Of a stretch of DNA of 39,337 nucleotides, positions 1,375-18,161 are shown piece by piece (position 1 is the stretch's first letter; every line of letters begins with the position of its first letter). A program made the position numbers and the translations under genes. The DNA is from Alphaproteobacteria bacterium (GTDB taxonomy: Bacteria; Pseudomonadota; Alphaproteobacteria; TMED109): assembly GCA_022819905.1 (NCBI GenBank), contig JAJEGJ010000017.1, positions 1-39,337 on the forward strand, written 5' to 3'. The notes beneath the pieces were generated by a model. That model worked only from the letters and a program-made list of their open reading frames with translations. It was not told the origin of the DNA and did no database searches.

Positions 1375-2520
1375 CTACATGCAGGCCTCGAACAGTGCCC
1401 GGGTATTCGCCTCCGTCATCGGCACCGGATTGCTCCCGGCCGACGGATCTTCGAGCGCCATTGTCGTGAGTTCATCCAGGCGCTGGTGAGAAACCCCCAT
1501 CTCGGTCAGCGTCTTCGGAATGCCCAGCTTTTCGCGAAGTTCCATCACCCGGTCGTAGAACGCGGCGAAACCGCCCCGAAGCCCGAGATAGGCGGCAGCA
1601 ATGGCAAGCCGGTCCTCGATCGCCGCGCGATTGAAGTCGAGGACGTATGGCATCACGCATGCGTTCGTGGTGCCATGGTGGGTGTCGTACACGGCGCCGA
1701 CCGGGTGGCTGAGTGCATGGATGGCGCCCAGTCCCTTCTGAAAGGCGACTGCCCCCATGGTGGCGGCCGCCATCATGTTCGCCCGGGCCACCAGGTCCGT
1801 ACCGTCAGTGTACGCGCCCAGCAGATTCTCGTGCACCAGACGCATGCCCTCGAGCGCGATGCCCTGACCCATGGGGTGGTAGTGCGGTGAACAGTACGCC
1901 TCGAGGCAGTGCGCAAAGGCATCCAATCCGGTACCGGCGGTGATCGGCTTGGGCAGGTCGACGGTTAGTTCCGGATCGATGATCACCACTGTCGGCAGCA
2001 CCCGGGGATGGAAAATGATCTTCTTCACGTGAGTTTCGGCATTGAGAATGACGCTGGTCCGGCCCACTTCGGATCCCGTACCGGCAGTAGTGGGAACAGC
2101 CACCACGGGCGCAATGCCGTCGGGGATCGCCCGCCGCCACCAATCGCCTATGTCCTCGAAGTCCCATACCGGGCGTGACTGGCCGGACATGAAGGCAACT
2201 GCCTTGCCGAGATCAAGGCCGGAACCGCCGCCGAACGCGACGACGCCGTCATGCCCTCCTTCGCGAAAGCGTGCGAGGCCAGCTTCCAAATTCCGGTCAC
2301 TCGGATTGGTATCGACGTCGGAGAAGATCGATCGGCCTAGCCCGCCGGCATCCAGTACGTCGAGGGTGGCCCGCGTCAGTGGTAGCGTGGCCAGTCCCCG
2401 ATCCGTGACGAACAGCGGGTTGCGGATATTCGCTTCGCCACACGCGCTCGGCAGTTCCTGAATTCGTCCCGCGCCGAACCGGATGGTCGTCGGGTACGAC
2501 CAGTCCGCCGTGAGCGTCAT
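1375..2520 (-). CDS. Iron-containing (group III) alcohol dehydrogenase
   Basis: This 381-residue protein oxidises a primary alcohol, or reduces an aldehyde, with NAD(P) and an active-site Fe(II). It shows the family pattern in order: nucleotide-binding GGGSGLD (97-103), PTTAGTGSE (143-151), then the metal ligands Asp200 and His204 in LDAFAHCLEA, His268 in the AIHALSHP segment and His282 in THHGTTNA. Length is typical. I chose the ATG at 2518-2520 rather than an upstream in-frame start at 2625 because the protein then begins at the family's usual N-terminus and the ATG overlaps the stop of the aldehyde dehydrogenase gene as ATGA, a translational-coupling arrangement. Paired with that dehydrogenase it probably carries out an alcohol-aldehyde-acid conversion. 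The substrate cannot be read from sequence. Confidence 0.93.
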   Translation of the reverse strand: MTLTADWSYPTTIRFGAGRIQELPSACGEANIRNPLFVTDRGLATLPLTRATLDVLDAGGLGRSIFSDVDTNPSDRNLEAGLARFREGGHDGVVAFGGGSGLDLGKAVAFMSGQSRPVWDFEDIGDWWRRAIPDGIAPVVAVPTTAGTGSEVGRTSVILNAETHVKKIIFHPRVLPTVVIIDPELTVDLPKPITAGTGLDAFAHCLEAYCSPHYHPMGQGIALEGMRLVHENLLGAYTDGTDLVARANMMAAATMGAVAFQKGLGAIHALSHPVGAVYDTHHGTTNACVMPYVLDFNRAAIEDRLAIAAAYLGLRGGFAAFYDRVMELREKLGIPKTLTEMGVSHQRLDELTTMALEDPSAGSNPVPMTEANTRALFEACM

Positions 2521-3899
2521 CCGGACGCCTTCTTCAGGTGGAAGGACTTCGGCCGGGTCAGGTTGTGGTAGCCGATTTCCGACAGTCCCCCACCCTTGCC
2601 GGTGAGCTTGCAGCCGGTCCAGCACAGCGCCGGATCAAGGTAGTCGGCCCGATTCATGAAGACGGTCCCGGTCTCGACACGGCGCCCGAGAGCCTCGGCG
2701 CGCTCGGCATCCGTGGTCCACAGCGAGGCGGTGAGCCCGAAATCGCTGTCATTCATCAGCCCGAGCGCTTCGTCATCGCTCTCCACCTTCATGATCCCGA
2801 CCACCGGCGCAAAGGTCTCGTCACGCATGATCCGCATCGAGTGGTCCACGTCGGTCAGGACCTGCGGCGAGAGATAGGCGCCGCCGTCATCCTCCGACAA
2901 GATCCGGACATGCGCCGTGGCGCCGGCCTGCACCGCCTCGGCGACCTGGGCGCGGGCCTCGTCCGCAAAGCGCCGGTGGGCCATGGGGCCGAGTGTGGTC
3001 TCCTCGTCGAGCGGGCTTCCCAGCCGGTAGGCCTCGGCAAATTCCACCGCCCCGTCGACGAAAGCGTCGTAGTTGGCGGCATGGACGTAGATTCGCTCGA
3101 TCCCGCAGCAGCACTGGCCGGAGTTGTACATGGCGCCGTCCATGAGCGTGCTCACAGCGGCAGCGAGGTCGGCATCTTCCATCACGTAGCCCGGGTCCTT
3201 GCCGCCAAACTCGAGGCCGAGGCTGGTAAAGGTACCGGCCGCCGCTTGCTCGATGGCCCGCCCGCCTTTCACGGAGCCCGTGAAATTCACGAAATCGAAC
3301 GCCCGTTCACTGATCAGCGCCAGGGTGGTGTCGTGCGCCAGGAACAGGTTCTGGAACACCTCCTCAGGCACGCCAGCCGCGTGGAACGCGTTCGCCAGGC
3401 GCTCGCCGACAAGGAGGGTCTGCGTGGCATGCTTCAGCACCACGGCGTTGCCGGCGATCAGCGCCGGAAGCACCGTGTTGATCGCGGTCATGTAGGGATA
3501 GTTCCACGGAGCCACCACCAGGACGAGGCCTCGGGGCTCGCGGCGGATCGTGCGGCGGAACCGGGCACTGTCTTCCACCTCAATGTCCCTGAGCGCCGCC
3601 GCTGCGATGGAAGCCATGTGGGTCGCACGCTCATTGAAGCCGCCCCATTCGCCGCCGTAGCGGACCGGGCGTCCCATCTGCCACGCGAGCTCCGTCACGA
3701 TCTCGTCATTCTCGGCGCCGATGCGGGCAACTCCCTCGAGGACGAGGTCGATGCGCTCCTGCAGGGGCCTCGCCGCCCACGCCCGTTGAGCCGCCCGGGC
3801 GCGCGCCACGATCGCCCGCGCCGCGTCGTCAGCGAGGGCTGGGCGCTCGGCGTAGACCGTCCCATCGACGGGGGAGATGCATTGCAGCTTCTTGGTCAT
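2517..3899 (-). CDS. NAD(P)-dependent aldehyde dehydrogenase
   Basis: This 460-residue cytosolic enzyme oxidises an aldehyde to the carboxylate. Visible motifs are the oxyanion Asn in PWNYP (131-135), NFTGSVKGG (205-213), the general base Glu230 in LEFGGKDPG, and the catalytic Cys263 in NSGQCCCGIER. EETTLGPM and the C-terminal EIGYHNLTRPKS are also family-like. The start is ATG at 3897-3899, preceded by GGGAG with 6 bases between; longer in-frame starts up to 4049 lack such a site and family similarity. Its stop overlaps the ATG of the alcohol dehydrogenase by four bases. It is somewhat short for the superfamily and resembles semialdehyde-type members, but substrate assignment would be guesswork. 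A TRAP operon lies 434 bases upstream on the same strand. Confidence 0.93.
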   Translation of the reverse strand: MTKKLQCISPVDGTVYAERPALADDAARAIVARARAAQRAWAARPLQERIDLVLEGVARIGAENDEIVTELAWQMGRPVRYGGEWGGFNERATHMASIAAAALRDIEVEDSARFRRTIRREPRGLVLVVAPWNYPYMTAINTVLPALIAGNAVVLKHATQTLLVGERLANAFHAAGVPEEVFQNLFLAHDTTLALISERAFDFVNFTGSVKGGRAIEQAAAGTFTSLGLEFGGKDPGYVMEDADLAAAVSTLMDGAMYNSGQCCCGIERIYVHAANYDAFVDGAVEFAEAYRLGSPLDEETTLGPMAHRRFADEARAQVAEAVQAGATAHVRILSEDDGGAYLSPQVLTDVDHSMRIMRDETFAPVVGIMKVESDDEALGLMNDSDFGLTASLWTTDAERAEALGRRVETGTVFMNRADYLDPALCWTGCKLTGKGGGLSEIGYHNLTRPKSFHLKKASG

Positions 3900-3911
3900 C
3901 TGAAACTCCCG
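3892..3911 (-). promoter_or_regulatory. Ribosome-binding site that sets the aldehyde dehydrogenase start
   Basis: The minus strand reads CCGGGAGTTTCAG then ATG at 3899-3897. GGGAG is a good Shine-Dalgarno match at normal spacing, favouring this start over longer in-frame options. Confidence 0.6.
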
Positions 3912-4333
3912 GTACGCTCCTGGTCTCAGGCGAACTTCCGGTTGATCAAGGCCATGGCCACGGCTTCCCCGTCCGGCTCGGCGCCACGGGTCCGAGCAAC
4001 GAGAGTTCATCGCCAATGGCCGCGACCGACCCGCGCGCGCGGGGATCACGCCCGGTCGCGCCCCTAACGCGGGTACCCGACCGCTGCCGCGGGCATGACG
4101 TGATCGCAGCGCCGATGGTCGGGCGAGTCGCGCTCGAGGACGGCAGCCATCTCAGCGGGCTTTTCGCGCGGCCCCGGCGCTGGTCATTAGCGCAAGTCAG
4201 CGCCGCATGGAATGCGCGGCTCTTGCAACAGGAACGCCAGCCGTGAAGCATGAACCTGCCGGACATCAGGCAGTCCGGGGGATGTGAATCTGGCGGGGCC
4301 CCGCCGGGATGGCGGGGCCGCCGCAAAGGCGGA
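3900..4333. other. Gene-free stretch between TRAP operon and aldehyde dehydrogenase
   Basis: The 434 bases contain no frame with protein-family features. A strong hairpin sits at its right end (4297-4319). The remainder presumably carries the leader or promoter of the aldehyde/alcohol dehydrogenase pair, but I cannot point to convincing -35/-10 boxes. Confidence 0.5.
4297..4319 (-). terminator. Perfect 9-bp GC hairpin after dctP
   Basis: GGCCCCGCC, loop GGGAT, GGCGGGGCC pairs perfectly. It begins 15 bases past the dctP stop on the minus strand. No T-run follows, but position and strength suggest a terminator or RNA-stabilising stem closing the TRAP operon. Confidence 0.5.
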
Positions 4334-5365
4334 TCAAGTGTAGCGATACGGCCGACCCGCTCGCTCCATGTCCGCGTTGTAGCGCTTGAAGATCTCGACC
4401 ACCCTGGCCTTGGTCTCCGACTCCGCGGCGACTTCGTCCCAGAAGACCCGCGCGGCCGCCTCGACCTGAGCCCATTCCTCGTCCGGGATCGATGTGAGCT
4501 CCATCTTCGTTCCGTTGACGCGCAGGCTCGCTTCACCACCCCAGTACCACCATTGGCGGTAGTAATGGGACTGGTCGCAGATGACGCGCAGCAGGAGCTG
4601 GAGATCCTCGGGAATCTCGTTCCAGCGGTCCATGTTGGCGTAGAACGACCCGATCCAGGCGCCGGAGATGTTGTTCGTCAGGAAGTAGTTCGTGACGTCG
4701 GCCCAACCGACCGTGTAGTCCTCGGTGATCCCTGACCAGGCGATACCGTCGAGCTCGCCCGTCTGGACAGCAACCTCGATGTCCTCCCATGGGAGGGTGA
4801 CGGGGACGACCCCAAACTGCGTCAGGAAACGGCCCGCCGTCGGGAAGGTGAACACGCGCTTGCCCTGCAGGTCCGCGAGCGAGTGAATAGGGTCCTTCGT
4901 CGCAAAGTGGCAGGGGTCCCAGGCGCCGGCGGAAATATGCTTCACACCGACCTTGGCATACTCGGCGTCCCAGATCTCGTTGAGGCCGTACTGGTTGAAG
5001 AGAACCGGGACGTCGAGCGAGTAACGTGATGCGAAGGGAAAGTACCCGCCGAACACGGTGACCTCGGTCGGTGACGCCATGGAATCGTCGTCGGACTGGA
5101 CCGCGTCGATCGTCCCGCGTTGCATCGCGCGGAACAGCTCGCCCGTGGGCACGAGCTGGTCAGCGTAGAACAGCTCGATCTGCATCCGCTCGCCCGCGAT
5201 CTTGTTGAACATGTCGATCGCCGGCTTCACCACGTGCTCGGCCAGGGCGGGACCGGCGTAGGTCTGCATTCGCCAGGTGATCTGTGCCTGGGCGAAGACA
5301 GGAGTCGCGATGGCAGCGGCCGGGGCGACGGCGGCGGCTTTCAGAAGATGGCGCCGTGTGGTCAT
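4334..5365 (-). CDS. dctP: TRAP transporter substrate-binding protein (DctP family, TakP-like)
   Basis: This 343-residue periplasmic binding protein delivers an organic acid to the DctQM permease encoded just upstream. The N-terminus TTRRHLLKAAAV is a twin-arginine (Tat) signal followed by an alanine-rich segment with a likely cleavage site around residue 25. The body has DctP-family features: LVPTGELFRAMQRGTIDAVQ, LQGKRVF and TGELDGIAWSG. Start ATG at 5363-5365 follows AGGAGT with 6 bases between, so the longer in-frame start at 5398 is rejected. It ends the four-gene leftward operon (amidohydrolase, DctQ, DctM, DctP), 45 bases after dctM. The ligand is unknown; TakP-like members often bind keto acids or other monocarboxylates. 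Confidence 0.93.
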   Translation of the reverse strand: MTTRRHLLKAAAVAPAAAIATPVFAQAQITWRMQTYAGPALAEHVVKPAIDMFNKIAGERMQIELFYADQLVPTGELFRAMQRGTIDAVQSDDDSMASPTEVTVFGGYFPFASRYSLDVPVLFNQYGLNEIWDAEYAKVGVKHISAGAWDPCHFATKDPIHSLADLQGKRVFTFPTAGRFLTQFGVVPVTLPWEDIEVAVQTGELDGIAWSGITEDYTVGWADVTNYFLTNNISGAWIGSFYANMDRWNEIPEDLQLLLRVICDQSHYYRQWWYWGGEASLRVNGTKMELTSIPDEEWAQVEAAARVFWDEVAAESETKARVVEIFKRYNADMERAGRPYRYT

Positions 5366-5410
5366 GGTGTCACTCCTTGCAGGCAGGCGCGCCGGCATCC
5401 GCCGCTCCGG

Positions 5411-6736
5411 CTAGTTCGCGTATACGTAACCGGGCAGCCACAGCGCGATTTCCGGAAAGCTGATGACGAGGGAAAGCGCCACGATCATCACGCCGACAAA
5501 GGGGATGATCGACCGGTAGATGTCACCCAGGGTGACTTCTGGCGGGGCCATGGCGCGCATCAGGAAGAGATTGTATCCAAACGGTGGGGTCATGTAGGCG
5601 ATCTGCGTGGTGATCGTGTACAGGACGCCGTACCAGATCAGGTTGAACCCCAGGGCGTCCACGAGCGGGACATAGAGTGGCGCCACGATCACGAGCATGG
5701 CCGTATCGTCGAGGAACGTTCCCATCAGGATGAACGACAGCTGCATGAGGATCAGGATCGTCCATGGCGACAGTCCCATGCGCTCCGTAAACAGGTTCTC
5801 GATCGCGCGCACGGCGCCAAGGCCATCGAACACGGCACCGAACGCGAGGGCGGCGAGAATGATCCACATGAACATGCAGCTGATCCGCAAGGTATTGCGG
5901 AGTGAATTCTCGAACACCTGCCGGGTCATCCGGCGTCGCACGACGGCTGCGAGGAACGCGGCCAGCGCGCCGATCGCGGACGACTCCACCAGCGACGTCC
6001 AGCCGTTGACGAACGGAATGATCATCACCGCGAAGATGAACAGCGGCAGCAGGCCAGCCCGCAGGAGCCGGTATTTCTCGGCCCGCGCCACGTCGCGTTC
6101 GGCCTTCGGCAGGACGGGACCGAGCGTGGGCGTGATCCGGCAGCGCAGCCAGATGTAGAAGACGAAGAGCCCGGCCATCATGAGCCCTGGGAACACCCCC
6201 GCGAGCCAGAGCTGCCCCACCGGCTGGCGGGCGATCATGGCGTAGAGCACAAGGACCACCGAGGGCGGCACAAGGATGCCGAGCGAACTCCCCGCTTGGA
6301 TCACCCCCGTCACCATGCGCTTGTCGTAGTTGCGCTTGAGCAGCTCGGGGAGCGCAATGGTGGCGCCGATGGCCATGCCGGCCACGCTGAGACCGTTCAT
6401 CGCCGAGACCAGCACCATGAGGCCAATCGTCCCCATGGCGAGGCCGCCCGCCATCCCGCCGGTCCAGACGTGGAACATGCGGTAGAGATCGTCGGCGATC
6501 TTCGACTCCGAGAGGACATAGCCCATGAAAATGAACATCGGCAGCGTCAGGAGCGGGTACCACTTCATGAGTTTCATGGCGGCCGCAAAGCCCAGGTCGT
6601 AGCCGCCACGGTCACCCCATAGGAGAAGGGCGGCGACGACCGCGACGAAGCCGATGGCACCGAAGACACGCTGGCCGGTAGCCAGCATCACCATCATCGT
6701 CGAGAACATGAGGATGGCGATGAGCTCGTACGACAT
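5411..6736 (-). CDS. dctM: TRAP transporter large permease (DctM)
   Basis: This 441-residue integral membrane protein is the ion-coupled transport subunit of a TRAP system. It opens MSYELIAILMFSTMMVML and contains about a dozen hydrophobic segments, with family stretches such as YPLLTLPMFIFMGYVLS, GSSLGILVPPSVVLVLY and MTPPFGYNLFLMRAMAP. An in-frame extension to 7312 exists but is the out-of-frame shadow of DctQ and is rejected. The ATG at 6734-6736 overlaps the DctQ stop as TGATG, so translation is probably coupled. Together with the adjacent DctQ and DctP it forms a complete TRAP transporter. Confidence 0.94.
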   Translation of the reverse strand: MSYELIAILMFSTMMVMLATGQRVFGAIGFVAVVAALLLWGDRGGYDLGFAAAMKLMKWYPLLTLPMFIFMGYVLSESKIADDLYRMFHVWTGGMAGGLAMGTIGLMVLVSAMNGLSVAGMAIGATIALPELLKRNYDKRMVTGVIQAGSSLGILVPPSVVLVLYAMIARQPVGQLWLAGVFPGLMMAGLFVFYIWLRCRITPTLGPVLPKAERDVARAEKYRLLRAGLLPLFIFAVMIIPFVNGWTSLVESSAIGALAAFLAAVVRRRMTRQVFENSLRNTLRISCMFMWIILAALAFGAVFDGLGAVRAIENLFTERMGLSPWTILILMQLSFILMGTFLDDTAMLVIVAPLYVPLVDALGFNLIWYGVLYTITTQIAYMTPPFGYNLFLMRAMAPPEVTLGDIYRSIIPFVGVMIVALSLVISFPEIALWLPGYVYAN

Positions 6737-7233
6737 CAGGGCGCCTCGCCGCGAATCCGAAGGACGTCCTTGAAGAACTCGGCCACCGCCTGCAGCAGCA
6801 TCAGCACGATGCCCACTACCATGATCACCTTGATCGGCCAGAGGTACGGGCGCCAGGCGGAGGGGCTGCGTTCGCCGCCGTACTGAAAGCTGTAGGCAGT
6901 CGAATCGATCCCACCCCAGAGCAGCACCACGAGGTAGAAGATCAGGAAGAACACCGTGAAGGCGTCGAACCAAGCCTTCGTGTGGGCCGACCACGAGCCG
7001 TAGAAGAGGTCCATGCGCACGTTCGCGCCGGTTTGGATCGCGTAGGGACCACCCAGAACGTAGTACGTCACCATCGCGAACTGCGCCATCTCGAGCGTCC
7101 AGAGCGAGGGATCGAAGAACGTCTTGGACATCGACGACCAGAGGAGGATGCCCATGATCGCGAAGATGCCGTACATCACGACGCGCCCAAGCCGGCGGTT
7201 CATCGTGTCGATCGCGGTGATGTAGCCGCGCAT
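6736..7233 (-). CDS. dctQ: TRAP transporter small permease (DctQ)
   Basis: This 165-residue membrane protein has four hydrophobic segments: VVMYGIFAIMGILL, MAQFAMVTYYVLGGPYAI, FTVFFLIFYLVVLLWGG and VIMVVGIVLMLLQAV. The family hallmark of a central ANVRMDLFYG segment after helix 2 is present. Start ATG at 7231-7233 is 8 bases past the stop of the amidohydrolase gene; a longer in-frame start at 7275 would overlap that gene by 34 bases. DctQ pairs with DctM in the inner membrane. The tight spacing on both sides supports one operon. Confidence 0.9.
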   Translation of the reverse strand: MRGYITAIDTMNRRLGRVVMYGIFAIMGILLWSSMSKTFFDPSLWTLEMAQFAMVTYYVLGGPYAIQTGANVRMDLFYGSWSAHTKAWFDAFTVFFLIFYLVVLLWGGIDSTAYSFQYGGERSPSAWRPYLWPIKVIMVVGIVLMLLQAVAEFFKDVLRIRGEAP

Positions 7234-7241
7234 CGTGCCGG

Positions 7242-8060
7242 TCACTCTTGTCGCGCCCGCATGCCGACCGCGCACGCCGCAAGCGACGGGATAAGCACAC
7301 CCGCAAGCGCATCGGCCATGCGATTGACGGCGGCAGCGCCCTGCAGGAGGTCGTTCCTGACCTCGATCATCAGCGGCAGGAGACCGCGGGGCTCGGCAAA
7401 GGTCCGGAGCGTATGCGTGACGCCCTCGTCAGGTCCGTACGGGCGATTCCGTTCCCAGCCCAACATGTTCGCATGCGCGAGGACCGCGTCCGCAAGCCGC
7501 GCATCGCGGTCGTGAATGACCCCGACTTCGGTCGTCCGGGGCATCCCCGCGAAGACCGGCGTGAAGCTGTGAACGCTGATCAGCGCGTCCGGACGGGCAG
7601 CGTCGATGGCCGCCGTGAGGGCGGCCACCCAAGGCGCATAGACGGTGTCGACCCGGACCTGCCGCTCCGCTTCGGTGAGGCCGAGGTTGCCGGGAATGTC
7701 CGTCGTTTCGCTGCGTTCGGTGATCGCGTCCGGAGCGCCCGGCGGCCGGTTCAGGTCGAACACGAGACGCGATACCCGGGCGCTGAGCAATGGCGCCCGG
7801 AGCCGCGATGCCAGGGCCTTCGCAAGGTCAAGCGCCCCGAGGTCCCACGCGATGTGGCTCGCTCGGTCCTGGTCGCCGAGGCCAAGCGAGCCGAATCGGG
7901 CGGGGATGGCGTTGGACGCGTGCTCGCAAACGACTAGCACCGGTGCCGGGCCGACACCGTCGAGCTTCGCAACCCGCGGTGGGTCGTCCATCGCGCTCGC
8001 CGCCGGCTCGCAAATCGCCGACCGGGACAGTTCCCCACGGATCGGACGAGCCTGCTCCAT
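7242..8060 (-). CDS. N-formylglutamate amidohydrolase-family hydrolase
   Basis: This 272-residue protein matches the FGase (HutG-like) metallohydrolase family: VCEHASNAIP (residues 44-53), HIAWDLGA, RLVFDLNRPPG and ISVHSFTPV, with the His and acidic residues expected for zinc. Classical FGase cleaves N-formyl-L-glutamate to formate and glutamate in histidine degradation, but no hut genes are nearby. Instead it heads a TRAP transporter operon, so it more likely hydrolyses an imported formyl- or acyl-amino compound; that is inference. The start is taken as ATG at 8058-8060; an internal ATG at 7991 is possible because neither has a good ribosome-binding site. The true promoter must lie in the long gene-free region upstream. 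Confidence 0.88.
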   Translation of the reverse strand: MEQARPIRGELSRSAICEPAASAMDDPPRVAKLDGVGPAPVLVVCEHASNAIPARFGSLGLGDQDRASHIAWDLGALDLAKALASRLRAPLLSARVSRLVFDLNRPPGAPDAITERSETTDIPGNLGLTEAERQVRVDTVYAPWVAALTAAIDAARPDALISVHSFTPVFAGMPRTTEVGVIHDRDARLADAVLAHANMLGWERNRPYGPDEGVTHTLRTFAEPRGLLPLMIEVRNDLLQGAAAVNRMADALAGVLIPSLAACAVGMRARQE

Positions 8061-8884: not shown

Positions 8885-8888
8885 TCAC
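8856..8888 (-). terminator. Hairpin spanning the stop codon of the small acyl-CoA dehydrogenase
   Basis: GTGACGGGC (8856-8864) pairs perfectly with GCCCGTCAC (8880-8888) across a 15-base loop. On the minus strand the stem begins at the gene's stop codon (8885-8887). No T-run follows. It is a candidate terminator or 3'-end stabiliser. Confidence 0.4.
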
Positions 8889-10015
8889 GCATCGCCGGCG
8901 AACCGGTCGAGGTGGTGGGCGGCATCACCGAAGAACGTATCGATCATGGTCAGGCGCTTGAAATAGTGGCCGACCTTGAGTTCGTCGGTCACGCCCATGC
9001 CGCCATGCAGCTGCACGGCCTCTTGCCCGACTTTCCGGCCTGAGTTTCCCATGTGGGCCTTTGCCGCCGACACCGCGCGCCGCCGCTCCGGTGCCGACTT
9101 GTCAAGGCTGAGGGTCGCCATCAGAGCCAGCGAGCGGGCTTCCTCGCACGCGATCAGCATGTCCACCGCGCGATGCTGCAGGACCTGGAATGCTCCGAGC
9201 GGCCGCCCGAACTGCTGGCGGGTCTTGAGATACTCCAGCGTGGTTTCCCGCAACAGATCCATCACTCCCACTGCTTCCGAACAGACGGCGGCAACCGCCC
9301 GGTCTGTGACAGCTTCGATCGCCGGGTACGCCCCGCCTTCCTCGCCCAGCAGGGCATCCTCGCCAACCTGGGCCCCTTTAAGAACGAGTTCCGCCGCTCG
9401 AAAGCCGTCGACCGTCCGATAAGGGCGCACGGTCAGGCCGGGCGTTTCGCGCGGCACCACGAACAGCGAAATACCGTCCTGTGCCCGCACCTCGCCGCTG
9501 CCTCGAGCCGAAACAATGATGAAGTCGGCCGCCTCGGCGTTGTGCACCACCGCCTTATGCCCCGACAGCGTGAAGCCGCCGGCACCGCCTTCCGCGCGGG
9601 TCGCCACATGCGCCAGCGCGTACCGCCCGCCCGGTTCGCCGTGCCCGAACGCCAGCTGGATCTTGCCCTCAATCAGGTCGCCGAGATAACGAGAGCGCTG
9701 CTCGGCGCCTCCCATTGACGCGATCAGTCGACCGCCGAGAAGGATGCTCGGTACATACGGCTCCAATACCAGCCCGCGACCAAACTGTTCCATCAGGATC
9801 ATTACGGACACCGGGTCGGCGCCAAGCCCACCCTCATCTTCGCTAAACGGGATCGCCAGCCAGCCCAGGTCCGCAAACTGCTGCCATACCGTCGGATCGA
9901 ACCCGAGGTCGCTGGCAGCAATGCGGCTCCGGGTCTCGAAGTCGTAGTCGTTCTGGATAAACCGGGCGATGCTCTCGGATAGCAGGGTGTGGTCTTCGCC
10001 GTATGACAGGTCCAT
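8885..10015 (-). CDS. Acyl-CoA dehydrogenase, pimeloyl-CoA dehydrogenase small-subunit type
   Basis: This 376-residue flavoprotein has the acyl-CoA dehydrogenase fold: an N-terminal helical domain, a middle beta domain (FTLSGHKAVVHNAEAADFIIVSA) and a C-terminal helical domain with TRQQFGRPLGAFQVLQHR and QLHGGMGVTDE. The end reads TMIDTFFGDAAHHLDRF where most family members have an IYGGTNEI-like motif. This degenerate end is what I recall from PimD-like small subunits, which pair with a catalytic PimC-like partner. The partner is the next gene upstream, ending 9 bases before this ATG (10013-10015). It probably oxidises medium-chain or dicarboxylic acyl-CoA as a heteromer, feeding electrons to ETF. 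The exact substrate is inferred. Confidence 0.9.
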   Translation of the reverse strand: MDLSYGEDHTLLSESIARFIQNDYDFETRSRIAASDLGFDPTVWQQFADLGWLAIPFSEDEGGLGADPVSVMILMEQFGRGLVLEPYVPSILLGGRLIASMGGAEQRSRYLGDLIEGKIQLAFGHGEPGGRYALAHVATRAEGGAGGFTLSGHKAVVHNAEAADFIIVSARGSGEVRAQDGISLFVVPRETPGLTVRPYRTVDGFRAAELVLKGAQVGEDALLGEEGGAYPAIEAVTDRAVAAVCSEAVGVMDLLRETTLEYLKTRQQFGRPLGAFQVLQHRAVDMLIACEEARSLALMATLSLDKSAPERRRAVSAAKAHMGNSGRKVGQEAVQLHGGMGVTDELKVGHYFKRLTMIDTFFGDAAHHLDRFAGDA

Positions 10016-10024
10016 CGCTACGCC

Positions 10025-11224
10025 TCACAGTTCCAGTACAAGCTTGGCGACGATACCTTTTTGGATTTCGTTCGAACCGCCGTAAATCGAGGCCTTGCGC
10101 CAGTTGAAGTACCTCGGCGCCACGCTGGCGGCGTACTCGGGCCCGATCGGCTCTTCGTTCCAGCCGTCCTTGAGGGCTTCGGGCACGTACGGATTGGCGT
10201 AGGTCCCCACCGCCTCGAGTGCAAGCTCGGTGATTCGCTGCTGGACCTCCGTACCGCGGATCTTGAGGATGTTCGCTTCGGTTCCCGGCTCCTCGCCCGA
10301 AGTCTGCCGGCTTAGCGCCCGCAATTCGGTGTACTCCAGCGCGAGCAGGTCGATCTCCAGAGAGGCGATCTTCTCGCGGAACCGATCGTCTTCGGACAAC
10401 GGGCGCCCGTTGGACAGTTCCGCGGCTGCGATGCGCTTGAGACCGGCAAGCTGCTTCTTTGAGCGCCCCACGTCGGCAATCCCCGCCCGCTCGAAGCTCA
10501 GGAGGAATTTGGCGTACGTCCAGCCGCGATTCTCCTCGCCGACCAGATTCTCCACTGGCACGCGAACGTCCTCGAAGAAGACGTCATTCACCTCATGGCC
10601 ACCATCGATCGTGATGATCGGCTTCACTTCGATTCCGGACGATCGCATGTCGATCAACAGAAACGAGATGCCCTGCTGCGGCTTGGCGGCATCCGGGTCA
10701 GTGCGCACCAGGCAGAAGATATGGTCGGCCCAGTGGGCGGATGTGGTCCATGTCTTTTGGCCATTGACGACATAGACGTCCCCGTCTCGCTCCGCGCGGG
10801 TGCGCAGGTTGGCCAGGTCGGAGCCTGCGCCGGGTTCCGAGTAACCCTGGCACCACCAGTCCTCTCCCGACAGGATCCGCGGGAGGTATCGGGCCTTCTG
10901 CGCACTGTTCCCGAAGGTGAAGATCACCGGGCCCACCATGTTCACTCCGAACGGCATGATCCGAGGTGCGCTGGCGGCCGCGGACTCCTCGTCGTACAGG
11001 TAGCGCTGCATGTGCGTCCAGCCGGTGCCGCCATGATCAACCGGCCAGCCCGGTGCCACCCAGCCCTTCTCGTAGAGGATCCGGTGCCAGGACGCGTAAT
11101 CCTCGCGCCCCAGTTCGAGGCCGTTCTCGACACGCCGCTTGATGTCGGGCGGCAGGCTCGTGGCTAGGAACGCACGCACCTCGTCGCGAAACGCGCGGTC
11201 CGCGCTGGTCAACTCGATGTTCAT
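10025..11224 (-). CDS. Acyl-CoA dehydrogenase, pimeloyl-CoA dehydrogenase large-subunit type
   Basis: This 399-residue acyl-CoA dehydrogenase carries the canonical motifs: the FAD/substrate segment QGYSEPGAGSDLANLRT, VNGQKTWTTSAHWADH, and the C-terminal SIYGGSNEIQKGI signature that its neighbour lacks. Start ATG at 11222-11224 follows GGAAGAG with 6 bases between; an in-frame extension to 11470 is rejected because it has no such site and no family similarity. It is the first gene of a two-gene leftward operon with the small-subunit-type dehydrogenase. Its 5' end faces the rightward CoA-transferase operon across 244 bases, so the two acyl-metabolism units are divergently expressed and probably serve one pathway (inference). 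Confidence 0.92.
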   Translation of the reverse strand: MNIELTSADRAFRDEVRAFLATSLPPDIKRRVENGLELGREDYASWHRILYEKGWVAPGWPVDHGGTGWTHMQRYLYDEESAAASAPRIMPFGVNMVGPVIFTFGNSAQKARYLPRILSGEDWWCQGYSEPGAGSDLANLRTRAERDGDVYVVNGQKTWTTSAHWADHIFCLVRTDPDAAKPQQGISFLLIDMRSSGIEVKPIITIDGGHEVNDVFFEDVRVPVENLVGEENRGWTYAKFLLSFERAGIADVGRSKKQLAGLKRIAAAELSNGRPLSEDDRFREKIASLEIDLLALEYTELRALSRQTSGEEPGTEANILKIRGTEVQQRITELALEAVGTYANPYVPEALKDGWNEEPIGPEYAASVAPRYFNWRKASIYGGSNEIQKGIVAKLVLEL

Positions 11225-11468: not shown

Positions 11469-12644
11469 ATGGATCATCCCGCCGCCGCACCCGTCTCCCC
11501 GCCGGGTCCCCTTTCAGGAGTGACGATCCTCGATCTCACGCGCGTACTTGCAGGCCCCTTCGCCACCATGGTTCTCAGCGATCTCGGCGCCCGCGTGATC
11601 AAGGTCGAACCGCCCGACGGGGACGATGCGCGTACCTTCCCTCCGTGGATCGGCGACACCTCCGCGTACTTCGGATCCCTCAATCGCGGGAAGGAGAGCA
11701 TCGCACTCGATCTCAAGGACGACACCGACCAGTCCCTGTTCAGACAGCTCCTCGGGCGGGCCGACGTGTTGGTCGAGAACTTTCGACCCGGCACACTTGA
11801 CCGCCTCGGCTTCGGCTGGGAGGCACTCAACGCCACCCACCCGCGCCTGATCCTCGCGTCCGTTTCAGGGTTCGGCCAAACCGGGCCGTGGGCCAGGCGA
11901 CCTGCCTACGACATGATCGTTCAGGGGATGGGCGGATTGATGTCGCTCACGGGACATGCAGACGGCCCGCCCACCAGGGTCGGGACATCGATCGGGGACA
12001 TCGCGGCGGGACTGTTCACGGCGGTGGGAATCGCCGCCGCCCTCCATGAGCGTAACCGCACGGGACTCGGGCGGTGGATTGACGTCGCCATGCTCGACTG
12101 CCAGATCGCGATTCTGGAGAACGCGGTAGCCCGTTACTTTGCCACGGGCGTCGCCCCGCCCCCTTCCGGCGCGCGTCACCCTGCGATCGCCCCGTTCGGA
12201 TGCTATCGGGCGGCCGATGGGCATCTTGTACTGGCGGCCGGCAACGACCGAATGTTCCGAACCCTCATGACGGTTCTCGGGCAACCGGAACTTGCAGACG
12301 ATCCTCGTTTTGCAGCCAACCGCGGCCGCATCGAGAACGTCGAGAGCCTGGAGGCCGAGCTCAATGCGTGCTTCCAGACCGCGTCGCGTGCCGAGTGGCT
12401 GGCAAAGCTTGAGGCGGCCGGCATTCCAGCCGGCCCCCTGAACGACGTCGCTGATGCGGTATCGTCCCCGCAGGTGCTCGCCCGGAACATGCTGGTCGAG
12501 GTTGCCGGCGGGACCGTCGACGGCATGAAAGTCGCCGGCAACCCCATCAAACTGTCTGGGCATCAGGACCCGCCCACGCGGGGGCCGGTGCCCGAACTCG
12601 ATGCAGACCGAGCCAGCGCCCTGGACCTGGTGCGTGACAGGTAG
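11469..12644 (+). CDS. Class III (CaiB/BaiF family) CoA-transferase
   Basis: This 391-residue enzyme moves CoA from one carboxylic acid to another through an aspartyl-CoA intermediate. The opening GVTILDLTRVLAGPFATM, DLGARVIKVEPP, then LNRGKESIALDLK and ENFRPGTLDRLG are diagnostic, and the catalytic Asp is Asp148 in PAYDMIVQG. The C-terminal segment AAGIPAGPLNDVADA is also typical. Length fits the family. The start ATG at 11469 lacks a clear ribosome-binding site. It leads a rightward cluster: its last 44 bases overlap the start of a penicillin-acylase-family gene, suggesting coupled translation and a shared pathway. CoA donor and acceptor are unknown. Confidence 0.93.
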   Translation: MDHPAAAPVSPPGPLSGVTILDLTRVLAGPFATMVLSDLGARVIKVEPPDGDDARTFPPWIGDTSAYFGSLNRGKESIALDLKDDTDQSLFRQLLGRADVLVENFRPGTLDRLGFGWEALNATHPRLILASVSGFGQTGPWARRPAYDMIVQGMGGLMSLTGHADGPPTRVGTSIGDIAAGLFTAVGIAAALHERNRTGLGRWIDVAMLDCQIAILENAVARYFATGVAPPPSGARHPAIAPFGCYRAADGHLVLAAGNDRMFRTLMTVLGQPELADDPRFAANRGRIENVESLEAELNACFQTASRAEWLAKLEAAGIPAGPLNDVADAVSSPQVLARNMLVEVAGGTVDGMKVAGNPIKLSGHQDPPTRGPVPELDADRASALDLVRDR

Positions 12645-14931
12645 CCCCCGAGCACGCTTCGGGCTAGCGCCAGCTCTCAGCCTCTGCCTGGCTGCGGCGC
12701 TGACCGCCGTGGCCGTCGGGCTTGCCCTGCCGTTGCTGGCGCTGCAGGCCGCCCTTCCCCGACTTGAAGGCCAACTTGAGGTTCGGGGCCTCAACACCGC
12801 GCTGCGGATCGCGCGCGACGCGCACGGCGTTCCGCACATCGCCGCCGGCAGCGAACGCGACGCCTGGTTCGGGCTCGGGTTCGCGCACGCTCAGGACCGT
12901 TTCACCGCTATGGAATTTGCCCGTCGGGCAGGTCGTGGCCGCCTGGCCGAAATCATGGGAGCGGCCGCGGTCCCGCTGGACCGCAAGTTCCGGACAATCG
13001 GTTACGCTCGGTCGGCCGAAGCCGTTGCGGCTTCGCTGGATCCCGAGACCCGGGATTTGCTGCAAGGCTATGCCGATGGCGTGAACGCCGCCCTCGAAAG
13101 CAACCATCGCCCGTTTGAATTGCGGGTCCTCGGTTTGTCACCTGAACCATGGCTGCCCGCCGACAGCATCCTCGCCATCAAGATGATGGGGACACTCCTC
13201 TCCGGCAACGCGGACACGGAAGCCGAACGGGCACGCCTCCTCCCGCGACTTGGCGAAGCCCGGCTCCGGGAACTCTCGCGCTCGGTCGACGACCTCCTCG
13301 CGGGGTCCAACGCCTGGGCAGTTGCCGGCCGCCATTCCGCCAGCGGCAAGCCGCTCCTGGCGAGCGACCCGCATCTTCGCCTTGCCGCGCCGTCAGTCTG
13401 GTACCTCGCCCATCTCGAGGCACCTGGCCTGCGGGTGTGGGGCGCGACGTTGCCGGGGATTGCTGCGGTCCCGATCGGCCGCAATGAGCATGTGGCCTGG
13501 GGCATGACCTCGGTCTATGCCGACGTCCAAGATCTCTACGTCGAGACCCTGGATCCGACCGAAGCCGGATCGTACCTGACCCCGGTGGGCTCGGAACCAT
13601 TTCGCGTCCGCTCTGAAACGATCGCGGTGAGGGGTCGGGACCCGGTCCATCTCACCATCCGAACCACCCGGCACGGGCCCGTGGTATCCGACCTTCCTGA
13701 ATTCGGGTTCGCCGGTCCCGGGCAGGTCGTGGCTTTCCGCTCGCAGGAGCTGGCCGACACGGACCTGTCCCAGCGGGCGGCGTTCCGGAGCGTACGCGCC
13801 GCGACCGCCGCCGCCTTCCGCGTGGCCATGCATGAGCTTGAGGCGGTCGTCCAGATCGCCGTGCACGCCGACGTCGACGACAATATCGGCTATGTGATGA
13901 CCGGCCGAATTCCGGTCCGCGCCACGGGCGACGGCTTTCTTCCGGTCGAGGGGACCGACTCCGGGGCCGCGTGGATCGGCAGCTTGGAGGGCGCCGCACT
14001 TCCGAGCGAAACCAATCCGCCCGACGGATGGGTCGCCAGCGCGAACGAGTACCTGGCACCCGCCGGATATCAGGCATTCATCATGCGGGACCGCCCTTCT
14101 TCCTACCGGGCAGAGCGCCTGCGGGAACTCCTCGCCAGCGTCCCCTCGGGAGGATTCACGCCTGCGCGGTTCGCAGACATGCAGACCGACATTGTGTCGC
14201 CGGCCGCGCGTGCGATCGTGCCCCTGCTCCTTGCCGCTGGCCCCTTTCCCCAACCCGACACCGACGCGGCCGATCTGCTGAGCCAATGGGATTTCCGCAT
14301 GGAAGCCGGCCGCCCGGAACCACTCGTGTACGCGGCCTGGCATCGCGCGCTGACGCAACGCCTGTCGTCCGCAGTGTTCGGCAACGGCGCCGTCCCGCTG
14401 GCGCCTCGGCCCCAGCTGCTCGTCGATCTGCTGACCGGCCGTGTGCCCGGGTGTGGCGACCCGCAACGCGCCTGCGTCGACGTTGTTCGCGGCGCATTGC
14501 GCGATGCAGTGCAATGGCTGCAGGAGCGGGACGGCGACGACTTGCAGGCCCTGCGCTGGGATTCTGCGGCAAGCGGCGTCCACCGGCATCGTCCCCTGGG
14601 CGAGCTCCCCCTTGTCGGAAATCTGGTCAACATCGTTCGCTCGCATGAGGGCGGACCGTTCACGCTCATGCGGATGCACTCGGACTGGAGCGACGATGGA
14701 CAGCCGTTTGCCGGCATCCATGGAGCGGGCGTGCGGATGGTGCATGATCTGGCCGAGCCGACGCGATCGTGGGCCGTGCTGTCCACCGGACAGGCCGGCC
14801 ATCCGCTCTCGCCGTGGTACCGCGATCACGCCGATCAGTGGTTCGCCGGGCGCCTCCTGCCGCTCGAATCGGACTGGGCCGAGATCAGAACGGAGCAGCA
14901 ACTCATGCTGCTTCCCCGACGTGACCCATAA
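12601..14931 (+). CDS. Penicillin acylase-family N-terminal-nucleophile amidase
   Basis: This 776-residue precursor belongs to the Ntn-hydrolase family of penicillin G acylase, PvdQ/QuiP acyl-homoserine-lactone acylases and related amidases. A hydrophobic segment near residues 22-50 directs export or anchoring. RDAHGVPHIAAGSERDAWFGLGFAHAQDR is the alpha-chain hallmark. The nucleophile is Ser236 at the autocleavage site LLAGSNAWAV; cleavage would give an alpha chain of about 200 residues and a beta chain of about 540, matching the family. IGRNEHVAWGMTSVYADVQDLY follows in the beta chain. The start may be ATG 12601 or GTG 12634; both overlap the CoA-transferase gene. It should cleave an N-acyl amide in the periplasm. 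The substrate is not determinable. Confidence 0.92.
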   Translation: MQTEPAPWTWCVTGSPRARFGLAPALSLCLAAALTAVAVGLALPLLALQAALPRLEGQLEVRGLNTALRIARDAHGVPHIAAGSERDAWFGLGFAHAQDRFTAMEFARRAGRGRLAEIMGAAAVPLDRKFRTIGYARSAEAVAASLDPETRDLLQGYADGVNAALESNHRPFELRVLGLSPEPWLPADSILAIKMMGTLLSGNADTEAERARLLPRLGEARLRELSRSVDDLLAGSNAWAVAGRHSASGKPLLASDPHLRLAAPSVWYLAHLEAPGLRVWGATLPGIAAVPIGRNEHVAWGMTSVYADVQDLYVETLDPTEAGSYLTPVGSEPFRVRSETIAVRGRDPVHLTIRTTRHGPVVSDLPEFGFAGPGQVVAFRSQELADTDLSQRAAFRSVRAATAAAFRVAMHELEAVVQIAVHADVDDNIGYVMTGRIPVRATGDGFLPVEGTDSGAAWIGSLEGAALPSETNPPDGWVASANEYLAPAGYQAFIMRDRPSSYRAERLRELLASVPSGGFTPARFADMQTDIVSPAARAIVPLLLAAGPFPQPDTDAADLLSQWDFRMEAGRPEPLVYAAWHRALTQRLSSAVFGNGAVPLAPRPQLLVDLLTGRVPGCGDPQRACVDVVRGALRDAVQWLQERDGDDLQALRWDSAASGVHRHRPLGELPLVGNLVNIVRSHEGGPFTLMRMHSDWSDDGQPFAGIHGAGVRMVHDLAEPTRSWAVLSTGQAGHPLSPWYRDHADQWFAGRLLPLESDWAEIRTEQQLMLLPRRDP

Positions 14932-14976
14932 CGGCGGCAGTTGCGCGGGCCCGGCGCCGTTCGCATAGTCGCGCCC

Positions 14977-15438
14977 ATGCCGACACCAGCCCAAGCATCA
15001 CCCAGACCGGAAATCCCGATCCTGGAAGACTACGCGCACCGGGTCGACCGGGATATCCGGTTCTTCGATCTGGACGGTGTGGGACACGTCAACCACGCGG
15101 CCGTCGCGCGCTACCTGGAAGAAGGCCGGCTCACGTATCTCGACGGCATCAATGACCCGATCAAGGCAGATCCGGTTTTCATGCTGGCCCACATCGCGAT
15201 CGACTACCTGGCCCAACTGCATTGGCCTGGGATGGTTACGGTCGGCACCAGAATCGCGCGCTTCGGCCGGTCCTCCGTCCATTGGGACCAGGCGGTATTC
15301 CATGGCGGCGTGTGCGCAGCGAAGGCACGCGCGGTCATGGTGCTTGCGGACCGAACCCGCGAAGCGAGCGTGCCGATCCCCGATCATCTCCGAGTTCAGT
15401 TGACCGAGCGGGGAGCTGGGCCCCGCCAGCGATCCTGA
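14977..15438 (+). CDS. Hotdog-fold acyl-CoA thioesterase (4HBT-like)
   Basis: The 153-residue protein (from ATG 14977) has the 4-hydroxybenzoyl-CoA-thioesterase-like pattern: FFDLDGVGHVNHAAVARYLEEGR, with the catalytic acidic residue in the DLDGVGHVNH segment, then HIAIDYLAQLHWPG and VHWDQAVFHGG strands. It should hydrolyse an acyl-CoA to acid and CoA in the cytosol. A TTG start at 14941 would add 12 residues, but the conserved domain does not need them. It lies 45 bases after the amidase gene and 31 bases before the permease gene, consistent with one operon. It may recycle CoA from the same acyl groups handled by the neighbouring transferase and dehydrogenases (inference). Confidence 0.87.
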   Translation: MPTPAQASPRPEIPILEDYAHRVDRDIRFFDLDGVGHVNHAAVARYLEEGRLTYLDGINDPIKADPVFMLAHIAIDYLAQLHWPGMVTVGTRIARFGRSSVHWDQAVFHGGVCAAKARAVMVLADRTREASVPIPDHLRVQLTERGAGPRQRS

Positions 15439-15469
15439 CGCCCATCCCGGCGGGGACGGCTGACCCGTC

Positions 15470-17266
15470 ATGACGCTGCCCATCGCGTTGACGCTGTCGA
15501 TCGCTGTGGTGGCCGTCGCGGCCTTCGTTTCGGGCCGCTTCCGTCTGGAAACCGTAGCTATTGGGCTGCTGCTCGCGCTCCTGTTCCTGTTTGTCTCGGT
15601 CGAGATGCCGGATGCGCGCGCCCAGCCGGGCATGGTCTTCGCGGGATTCGCGAACACCGGCCTCATCACGCTGATGGCGCTGCTGATCGTCGCCCGGGGA
15701 TTGACCGAAACCGGCGCACTCAGCCGGGTTGCGGACGTCATCAACCGGATGGCGCGTCACCGCCGGTGGATGGTATTCGTCCTCCTCCTCCTCGTCGCAG
15801 CATTGACGTCGAGCCTGATCAACAACACGCCCATTGTCCTGATCTTCATTCCCATTCTGATCCTCGTCGCATCCGATCGCCTGCCCCCCTCGCGCACACT
15901 CATTCCGCTGAGTTACGCCAGCATCCTCGGCGGCATGACCACCCTCGTCGGCTCCAGCACCAATCTCATCGCAGCCGGTGTCGCCGTGGACCTCGGACTT
16001 CCCCCGTTCGACTTTTTCGCGTTCACGATTCCCGGCCTGGTCGTGGCCGGAGCCGGTCTCGTGTATGTCACCGCCGTCCTTCCGTGGCTGCTGCCGAAAC
16101 TGAAGACCGAAGCGGTGACGCCCGTGGAATCGCGGCAGTTCGTGACCGAGCTCGAAGTCCGCTCGGATGCGCCCGCCGTGGGGGAGGCGTCGATCGGAGG
16201 GATGTTTCCCAGCCTCCAGGAGATGACGGTCTTTTCGGTGCGGCGCGGGCTGGATACCTATCTGTTCCCATTTGACGACGTGGCGCTGCAGGCCGGGGAT
16301 GTGCTCGTGGTCGCGCTCGCCCGTACCCGTTTTCCGGCGATTCTCGGCTCTCTCGGCGGTGTCTTCCGAACAGCGCGTATCCGTGCCGAGAACGAGGCGA
16401 ACTTCTTTGCGGAAGCCGTGGTCACGGTGGATTCGCCGTTTACCCAAACCCCGCCGATGACGCCCGAGACGTTCCGCCGGCGAACCGGGTGCACGATCCT
16501 CGGCCTCCGGCGCACCCGCTTGACCAACCGTCGCGTCCGGCCGCTGGAGGTGCCGCTCCAGAGCGGGGACATGTTGCTGGTGGAAGGTACCCAGAGCGCG
16601 GTAGGCGAGCTTCGCCAGTCAGGCATCGTGGTGCCGACGGAATGGCGGCAGAGCCAGCTGCCGCCCGTCAAGTTCCGCTGGCGCGCGGCCGGCATCTTCC
16701 TGGGCACCGTGCTGGCCGCATCGAGCGGGCTCGTGCCGGTGGTCGTGGCCGCCGTAGCCGGTGCGTTTTCGATGATTGCCTCAGGCACGCTCTCTGTCGG
16801 GCGGGCGCTCGGCGCAATCGACGGCCGCGTCGCCCTGCCGGTGGCAGCGATGCTTGGCCTGAGCGGGGCCATGCAGATGAGCGGGGCGGCCCAGTGGGTG
16901 GCGGACGGCGCCGTGCGGGCCATGGAGATGTTCGGGTTCGGGCCGGCGGCCATGATGTCGGCGCTCTTCCTGGTCACGGCGATCACGACGGACATGCTGA
17001 CCAACAACGCGGCGGCCCTGCTCTACATGCCGATTGCCATTGGCATCGCCCAGATTCTCGGGGTCGACCCGTTTCCGTTCGCAGTCACGGTGATCTTTGG
17101 CGCCAACATGTCGTTTTCGACGCCCATCGGCTACCAGACCAACCTTCTGGTGATGGGCCCCGCTGGTTACCGCGGCCGCCATTACCTGCGAAGCGGTCCT
17201 CCGCTCACACTGATTTGCTGGGGGACCTTCACGCTGTTCGTGCCCTGGTACTACGGGATCGCGTAG
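15470..17266 (+). CDS. SLC13/DASS-type carboxylate permease with two TrkA-C domains
   Basis: This 598-residue membrane protein has two hydrophobic halves (about 1-210 and 400-598) separated by a soluble region with two RCK_C/TrkA-C-like repeats, each ending in a QAGDVLVV- or QSGDMLLV-type strand. DASS transporter signatures are SSTN (162-165) in the first half and the related QTN (556-558) in the second, with SLINNTPIV and TDMLTNNAAALLY helical hairpins. Members import di- or tricarboxylates or sulfate with Na+; the RCK_C-containing subgroup is poorly characterised. Its place at the end of the CoA-transferase/amidase/thioesterase cluster suggests uptake of a carboxylate used there. The start is ATG 15470; no strong ribosome-binding site is visible. 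Confidence 0.9.
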   Translation: MTLPIALTLSIAVVAVAAFVSGRFRLETVAIGLLLALLFLFVSVEMPDARAQPGMVFAGFANTGLITLMALLIVARGLTETGALSRVADVINRMARHRRWMVFVLLLLVAALTSSLINNTPIVLIFIPILILVASDRLPPSRTLIPLSYASILGGMTTLVGSSTNLIAAGVAVDLGLPPFDFFAFTIPGLVVAGAGLVYVTAVLPWLLPKLKTEAVTPVESRQFVTELEVRSDAPAVGEASIGGMFPSLQEMTVFSVRRGLDTYLFPFDDVALQAGDVLVVALARTRFPAILGSLGGVFRTARIRAENEANFFAEAVVTVDSPFTQTPPMTPETFRRRTGCTILGLRRTRLTNRRVRPLEVPLQSGDMLLVEGTQSAVGELRQSGIVVPTEWRQSQLPPVKFRWRAAGIFLGTVLAASSGLVPVVVAAVAGAFSMIASGTLSVGRALGAIDGRVALPVAAMLGLSGAMQMSGAAQWVADGAVRAMEMFGFGPAAMMSALFLVTAITTDMLTNNAAALLYMPIAIGIAQILGVDPFPFAVTVIFGANMSFSTPIGYQTNLLVMGPAGYRGRHYLRSGPPLTLICWGTFTLFVPWYYGIA

Positions 17267-17420: not shown

Positions 17421-18161
17421 ATGACGCTTCCACTCGGCGACACGATCCCGATCTTCGTCGGAACGTCGGCCCTTCCCTGCCCGTATCTGCCGGGCAAGAT
17501 CGAGCGCAAGGTCATCACCCAAATCCCGACGCAGCACGCCGACCAGTTTCACGCCGACCTCATTCGTGCCGGGTTTCGACGCAGCCACGGAATGGCCTAC
17601 CGGCCGGCGTGTCCCGCCTGCACCGAGTGTCGACCCGTGCGCATCGACGCCAGCTGCTTTCAGCTTGGTCGCCGGTTCCGTCGGGCTCGCCGGGCCTGCC
17701 GGGTTCTCAAGTGGCGCGAATGCGACCCGGTTGCCACCCGGGAGCAGTACGGCCTCTTCCGGCGCTACCAGACCGATCGCCACATCGGCGGCGATATGGA
17801 GGGGATGAGCTACGCGTCGTACCAGGCGATGATCGAGGAAACGCCGGTTGACACCCGGGTGGTGGAAGCCCGCGACCAGGACGGCAGCCTGATCGCGGTA
17901 TCGCTGACCGACCGGCTGTCTGACGGGCTGTCCGGGATCTACAAGTTCTGGGATCCCGAGCGCCGGCAGGACAGCCTCGGCACCGCGACCATCCTCTGGC
18001 ACATCCTGCGGGTGCAGTCGCTGGACCTTCGCTACTTCTACCTGGGGTACTGGATTCCGCGATCATCCAAGATGGCCTACAAGCGACGCTTCCAGCCGCT
18101 GGAGGAACTGACCGAGCGGGGATGGGTTCGGCTGGGCGGGAGCGCCACTCGAGCGTCGTAA
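17421..18161 (+). CDS. bpt: Aspartate/glutamate leucyltransferase (Bpt)
   Basis: This 246-residue enzyme transfers Leu from leucyl-tRNA to proteins with N-terminal Asp or Glu, marking them for ClpS/ClpAP degradation in the bacterial N-degron pathway. Family features are CPYLPGK (20-26) with Cys20, then AYRPACPACTECRPVRI with Cys64, Cys67 and Cys70, and the C-terminal GNAT-like fold including GIYKFWDPE, YFYLGYWIP and MAYKRRFQPLE. Length is typical. The start is ATG 17421, with no obvious Shine-Dalgarno site. In some alphaproteobacteria the gene stands alone, and here it lies between the acyl cluster and an unrelated TRAP gene. I see no functional link to its neighbours. Confidence 0.94.
   Translation: MTLPLGDTIPIFVGTSALPCPYLPGKIERKVITQIPTQHADQFHADLIRAGFRRSHGMAYRPACPACTECRPVRIDASCFQLGRRFRRARRACRVLKWRECDPVATREQYGLFRRYQTDRHIGGDMEGMSYASYQAMIEETPVDTRVVEARDQDGSLIAVSLTDRLSDGLSGIYKFWDPERRQDSLGTATILWHILRVQSLDLRYFYLGYWIPRSSKMAYKRRFQPLEELTERGWVRLGGSATRAS

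Follow-up and report, generated by a model that had tools for sequence, protein, structure and literature searches.

The window analyzed here, a 39,337-nucleotide contig (JAJEGJ010000017.1) from an alphaproteobacterial genome of the TMED109 lineage, carries a type III CoA-transferase gene followed by genes for an S45 (penicillin acylase-type) N-terminal nucleophile (Ntn) amidase, a thioesterase, and a permease, with two acyl-CoA dehydrogenase genes in divergent orientation. We consider it probable that the core of this locus is a two-gene unit, the CoA-transferase and then an anchored periplasmic amidase, which was inherited in a gene order found throughout the class. The initial annotation had listed the same genes, and its gene content was borne out by Pfam. 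It had also combined the whole set into one pathway for acyl catabolism, an interpretation that comparison with other genomes did not support.

The amidase was found in 60 genomes of the class, with weaker matches in G030, G039, G045, and G059 left aside, and gene neighborhoods were compared for 53 of the 60 (all except G069, G104, G172, G279, G312, G330, and G336). A close CoA-transferase homologue (51 to 65% identity) was present in 28 of the 60 genomes. In 14 of these 28, representing eight families (f16, f26, f35, f38, f79, f80, f119, and f124), it immediately preceded the amidase gene in the same orientation; in three more (f12, f61, and f144), approximately one gene intervened, and in two its position was undecidable at contig edges. 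The spacing is tight and conserved: of the 14 adjacent loci, 13 have an in-frame amidase start 0 to 58 nucleotides past the CoA-transferase stop, and none was found in the remaining one. Because the two genes adjoin across eight alphaproteobacterial families, the pair is a real, recurrent unit, and the coupling suggested by the initial annotation held up when neighborhoods were compared. Literature term searches returned no paper linking an S45 amidase with a CoA-transferase or a threonine dehydratase.

The class-wide order in which the pair occurs is hemB-caiB-amidase-threonine ammonia-lyase-motA-motB-RDD-[thioesterase-permease]-bpt-parC. Among the 53 loci, 34 had hemB upstream in the same orientation, 28 had motA, 30 had motB, and 33 had bpt downstream. 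At least one of these anchors was present in 47 loci, and 25 had anchors on both sides. The threonine ammonia-lyase gene followed the amidase within 200 nucleotides on the same strand in 25 loci, and the protein chosen to represent it (L146) exceeds the NF005600 and TIGR01127 cut-offs. One locus (L181, genome G382) displays the order CoA-transferase-amidase-ammonia-lyase without any hemB, mot, or bpt anchor.

Within this order, the thioesterase and permease go with bpt, and the dehydrogenase pair is a local trait of the window's genus. A thioesterase occurred near the amidase in 3 of the 53 loci, always next to the permease or bpt and never next to the amidase itself; the permease occurred in 7 and the dehydrogenases (at least 49% identity) in 1. 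The one partial parallel outside the genus is L181, in which a dehydrogenase pair (49 and 52% identity) is located 4.7 to 6 kb downstream. In these loci, the amidase, thioesterase, permease, and dehydrogenases were not found together outside the genus, as they would be in a dedicated operon for acyl-amide catabolism.

The window's taxonomic order comprised 28 genomes, all of one family, with 7 in the window's genus and 21 others. The related genus records are metagenome assemblies; isolates named SB0662 are sponge derived. The amidase was present in all seven genus genomes and in none of the 21 others, and the CoA-transferase (E of 1e-100 or lower) in all seven and in 15 of the 21. In the sister genera the CoA-transferase gene leads directly to the permease gene, without amidase or thioesterase, in 11 of 12 neighborhoods, the twelfth being cut by a contig end. 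A threonine ammonia-lyase with 40 to 46% identity to the L146 protein was detected in 10 of 12 other family genomes searched; the genus yielded only matches of 35 to 38%. Within the genus, the cluster genes stay together in all seven genomes, with slightly variable spacing. These comparisons favor viewing the window's cluster as a condensed vestige of the class-wide order, together with a local dehydrogenase pair. With the ammonia-lyase and motAB no longer at the genus locus, the thioesterase and permease would have been brought beside the amidase, the dehydrogenase pair being divergent. A shrunken ancestral gene order can mimic a purpose-built catabolic operon. At L112 to L122, in the sister genera that lack the amidase, the longest CoA-transferase and CitMHS permease frames lie 1 nucleotide apart or overlap, a hint that these genes may act as the functional pair in those genera.

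The initial annotation had the amidase starting inside the CoA-transferase gene, at position 12601, with 44 nucleotides shared. An overlap does exist; its length and the start were revised. ATG at 12601 is kept in five of the seven genus genomes, with ACG in two of the six other than the window, whereas codon 12 (position 12634) reads GTG in six genomes and ATG in the seventh. Because the upstream ATG is not conserved and a start codon stands at 12634 in every genome of the genus, the overlap probably spans 11 nucleotides, and the nucleophile would then be numbered Ser225 instead of Ser236. Conservation across 12601-12644 tracks the CoA-transferase frame. Variability is highest at its third positions, which are the second positions of the amidase frame, and the stretch is therefore unlike amidase coding sequence. 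An overlap of 11 nucleotides is still consistent with translational coupling.

Membership of the amidase in S45 (PF01804) is evident from a whole-domain match, a GSN motif with the N-terminal Ser of the beta chain, active-site His, Asn, and Arg, and a matching fold. Ser236, which the initial annotation had singled out as the nucleophile, lines up with the first residue of the beta chain in solved S45 enzymes and is Ser in all 40 rows of the amidase's clade in the tree described below. The same rows show no variation at beta-chain residues S1, N2, W4, H23, N247, and R268, and a Gly-Ser junction is present at the predicted cleavage point between the alpha and beta chains. Residue beta-24 is Leu in 39 of the 40 clade rows and Phe in all seven PvdQ rows, and it is Arg in D-succinylase, in the acylase of PDB entry 4hst, and in 14 of 18 rows of a group from other phyla. 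At beta-57, 37 of the 40 have Leu or Ile. Leu at beta-24 may point to a hydrophobic acyl pocket.

A structure model of the amidase had a mean predicted local distance difference test (pLDDT) score of 75.9 and a predicted template modeling (pTM) score of 0.82, with residues 1 to 28 and 685 to 710 below a pLDDT of 50. It contains one N-terminal hydrophobic helix at residues 25 to 50 (hydropathy, 2.44), the start of which falls within the first of these low-scoring segments. Such a helix (hydropathy of at least 1.6) was also present in 35 of the 39 other clade rows; the four without it include L064 and L140, both cut at contig ends. Because the helix recurs in this way, the amidase is likely a membrane-anchored periplasmic enzyme, so that "anchored" describes it better than the earlier term "exported." Its likely role is to hydrolyze, in the periplasm, an N-acyl amide whose acyl group is hydrophobic.

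In a 92-row tree, the window protein and its genus fell inside an alphaproteobacterial clade of 40 rows (support, 99), a separate 26-row group on a long branch (support, 100) contained PvdQ and PvdQ-like proteins, and D-succinylase and cephalosporin acylase made up a third group (support, 97). The Cupriavidus D-succinylase grouped with L075 (support, 100), and the window amidase was placed outside that clade. Duplicates (L012, L033 to L037, and L061) and partial or poor sequences (L054, L055, L056, and L058) were omitted. The PvdQ-like rows were chosen with the curated model NF051460, seven loci scoring above its cut-off and the rest below, and neither tree has MacQ or QuiP among its rows. A second tree, made from a subset of these rows together with plasmid loci (five of seven, without L203 and L204), returned the same grouping, with a 41-row clade (support, 95) that adds proteins from Azospirillum, Methylomagnum, and Burkholderia. 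On these trees, the amidase clade is mainly alphaproteobacterial and well separated from PvdQ-type acyl-homoserine lactone (AHL) acylases. The initial annotation had named clustering with cephalosporin or unrelated acylases as a result that would speak against it, and the position outside the PvdQ group is such a result for AHL use.

Profile and fold comparisons were carried out as well. A profile built from the window's clade (A2) scored D-succinylase at 466 bits, the beta chain of cephalosporin acylase at 337, and that of PvdQ at 94; it was used instead of a profile drawn mostly from other phyla (A1), which ranks cephalosporin acylase about level with D-succinylase. The window amidase reached 87.1 bits against NF051460, the cut-off of which is 950. 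A fold search with the model returned D-succinylase as the best match (Z, 41), followed by cephalosporin acylases (Z, 35 to 37) and MacQ (Z, 33.7). Annotated relatives of the window amidase carry only the name "penicillin acylase family protein."

TABLE 1 Features of the CoA-transferase-amidase locus and its flanks (window coordinates)
Feature	Position	Strand	Evidence
CoA-transferase family III (CaiB/BaiF), 391 amino acids	11469-12644	+	PF02515, 447.7 bits
S45/penicillin-acylase-type Ntn amidase, longest frame	12601-14931	+	PF01804 (Penicil_amidase), 649.3 bits
Amidase, probable true extent	12634-14931	+	Start codon at 12634 in 7/7 genus genomes
Probable 11-nucleotide overlap, CoA-transferase 3' end/amidase 5' end	12634-12644	+	
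Codon of catalytic N-terminal Ser of beta chain (Ser236, longest frame)	13306-13308	+	
4HBT-fold thioesterase	14941-15438	+	PF13279 (4HBT_2) and PF03061 (4HBT)
CitMHS/SLC13-like permease with TrkA_C domains	15470-17266	+	PF03600, 219 bits; PF02080
Acyl-CoA dehydrogenase, large-subunit type	10025-11224 (longest frame to 11470)	-	PF02770/PF00441/PF02771
Acyl-CoA dehydrogenase, small-subunit type	8885-10015	-	Three Pfam domains; TIGR03203, 386 bits (cut-off, 652.7)
Arginyl/leucyl-tRNA-protein transferase (bpt/ate)	17421-18161	+	PF04377/PF04376; NF002343, 287.8 bits (above cut-off of 267)

Taken as a two-gene unit, the locus could work as follows. The amidase precursor would be cleaved before Ser236. 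Outside the cytosol, the exposed Ser would then hydrolyze an N-acyl amide whose acyl group is hydrophobic, and the carboxylic acid released in this way may, after import, receive CoA from the co-encoded transferase. Several observations weigh against such a shared function. The CoA-transferase is encoded elsewhere in 9 of the 28 genomes that have a close homologue, and 32 of the 60 amidase-bearing genomes have no such homologue; the amidase is therefore not dependent on the CoA-transferase. Conversely, the sister genera keep the CoA-transferase while lacking the amidase. A scan of the locus for sigma-70 promoters and terminators found no promoters, and terminators at chance level. Moreover, a cytosolic transferase and a presumably periplasmic amidase are linked by assumption only, and a slowly rearranging block could hold the two genes together without any common role. 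That they are mere neighbors in a slowly evolving chromosomal block, with no functional link, is in our judgment rather unlikely. The anchors in most amidase loci and the nine genomes with separated genes agree with it, but the narrow spacing across eight families and the persistence of the pair in L181, where the anchors are missing, do not. The pathway of the initial annotation, in which an acyl amide is cleaved outside the cell and its acid imported, activated, and oxidized by the entire set of genes, is unlikely: its unity throughout the genus and the partial parallel in L181 are outweighed by the scarcity of thioesterase, permease, and dehydrogenases at amidase loci elsewhere and by the sister genera, which lack the amidase but have the permease right behind the CoA-transferase.

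The remaining alternatives concern the substrate. A dicarboxylic acid amide hydrolase resembling D-succinylase or glutaryl-7-aminocephalosporanic acid (7-ACA) acylase, feeding a CoA-transferase of the YfdE or succinate-hydroxymethylglutarate CoA-transferase (SUGCT) type, would suit the closest solved structures of both proteins and a permease of the CitMHS/DASS superfamily. We hold it to be distinctly improbable, since the Arg at beta-24 of those enzymes, which may serve such substrates, is Leu in the window's clade and beta-57 is likewise hydrophobic. Maturation of an N-acylated peptide by a periplasmic deacylase, as PvdQ does for pyoverdine, draws on a Methylomagnum plasmid (L200, 4899-12253), where a clade member is clustered with a SidA/IucD/PvdA-type monooxygenase, MbtH, and a large nonribosomal peptide synthetase (NRPS). 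This suggests a PvdQ-like maturation role for that protein, and the case illustrates that the amidase clade can occur in other settings. An S45 relative on a Bradyrhizobium plasmid points the same way. For the window, such a role is very improbable: no NRPS gene was recognized among the open reading frames scanned with Pfam, and the recurrent partners in the class are the CoA-transferase and the threonine ammonia-lyase. In that Bradyrhizobium plasmid (L203, 4800-7241), the S45 acylase gene is flanked on both sides by NRPS genes, and the gene ends overlap.

The initial annotation had also raised the use of quorum signals, and we regard an AHL acylase as extremely improbable here. Some members of the S45 superfamily are quorum-quenching enzymes, and MacQ was among the fold matches (root mean square deviation [rmsd] of 3.8 over 619 residues), but a clade apart from the PvdQ-type acylases argues against that label, as do the low score on the PvdQ model and the preference of the clade profile for D-succinylase. 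An AHL-binding LuxR domain was not found in the seven genus genomes (an Escherichia coli control matched), nor was a LuxI domain, in a search in which the control also gave no match. LuxI was detected in only 11 of the 60 amidase-bearing genomes and in 2 of 7 PvdQ-carrying genomes (Pseudomonas, inferred from the PvdQ model). AHL use was rejected on the basis of tree, family score, and these absences. Degradation of the signals of others is still conceivable for bacteria without signals of their own, but nothing points to it.

The recurrent partners of the amidase, CoA-transferase and threonine ammonia-lyase, likewise speak against a quorum-quenching label and point to testable substrates. A quite unlikely extension of the two-gene unit is that the three constitute an uncharacterized alphaproteobacterial module for N-acyl amino acids, such as N-acyl-threonine or N-acyl-serine. 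The amidase would split the substrate outside the cytosol, the lyase would deaminate the amino acid, and the transferase would load the acid with CoA. If so, the window's genus would possess a reduced version, with the lyase gone and the thioesterase, permease, and dehydrogenases nearby instead.

The flanking genes can be described briefly. The thioesterase has two candidate starts, TTG at 14941 and ATG at 14977. The permease scored 68.7 bits against TIGR00785 (DASS), below the cut-off of 198.6, and the label "carboxylate permease" used earlier is only a guess at family level. Both minus-strand dehydrogenases carry three Pfam domains and are divergent to the CoA-transferase. The large one scored 495 bits against TIGR03204 (cut-off, 623.85); because its Pfam domain begins only near residue 83 of the 481-amino-acid longest frame, it probably starts at 11224, which would leave a gap of approximately 244 nucleotides to the CoA-transferase. 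Downstream of the permease, bpt/ate, which is an anchor of the ancestral gene order, is accompanied by a tripartite ATP-independent periplasmic (TRAP) transporter binding protein and, further on, by parC (topoisomerase IV/gyrase A type), recO, and era. Positions 1375-8060 on the minus strand encode an Fe-type alcohol dehydrogenase, an aldehyde dehydrogenase, a TRAP transporter (DctP, DctM, and DctQ), and a protein resembling N-formylglutamate amidohydrolase (FGase). This group is preserved across the genus genomes; the transporter gave no match in G003 (L060), where the alcohol dehydrogenase directly adjoins an FGase fragment. The source genome also encodes a second S45 acylase (L002; L061, 8821-11115 and 13075-15312), approximately 31% identical to the first and with counterparts across the other genus genomes. 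Close to it is a gene of the ADP-forming acyl-CoA synthetase type, which combines CoA-binding, succinyl-CoA-ligase-like, and ATP-grasp domains.

Among characterized CoA-transferases, the nearest solved relatives by phmmer are YfdE (364 bits) and SUGCT. The window protein shares family III with them over its full length, and its PF02515 match covers the whole domain, far above the gathering score of 23.3. It differs in falling below every NCBIfam equivalog cut-off, with NF008511 (YfdE type, CoA:oxalate) as the best at 405.2 bits against 522. For the amidase, the D-succinylase of Cupriavidus sp. P4-10-C (PDB 7eby/7ea4) is the closest known system: it has the same S45 Ntn fold along almost its entire length (rmsd of 3.2, with 679 residues aligned), shares the Ser nucleophile, His23, and the active-site Asn and Arg, and is the top match of the clade profile. 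However, it is only 26 to 29% identical, belongs to another clade, and has Arg at beta-24. The glutaryl-7-ACA and cephalosporin acylases (4hst and 3s8r) have fold and catalytic residues in common with the window amidase, but identity in structure alignments is 22 to 28%, and 4hst is in another clade and also has Arg at beta-24. PvdQ and the AHL acylases share the superfamily, the Ser nucleophile, and a hydrophobic residue at beta-24, yet stand apart on their long branch. The relatives in Azospirillum, named "penicillin acylase family protein," belong to the same S45 clade as the window amidase. They are encoded on large plasmids (L198, 8416-12512; L199, 8602-12521; L201, 4845-8521), where hemB, mot, and bpt are not nearby. 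The threonine ammonia-lyase, which is absent from the window's locus, is nevertheless the next gene there, and this is independent evidence that amidase and lyase are linked. The two overlap by 4 nucleotides in A. ramasamyi and A. lipoferum, and their longest frames overlap in A. brasilense.

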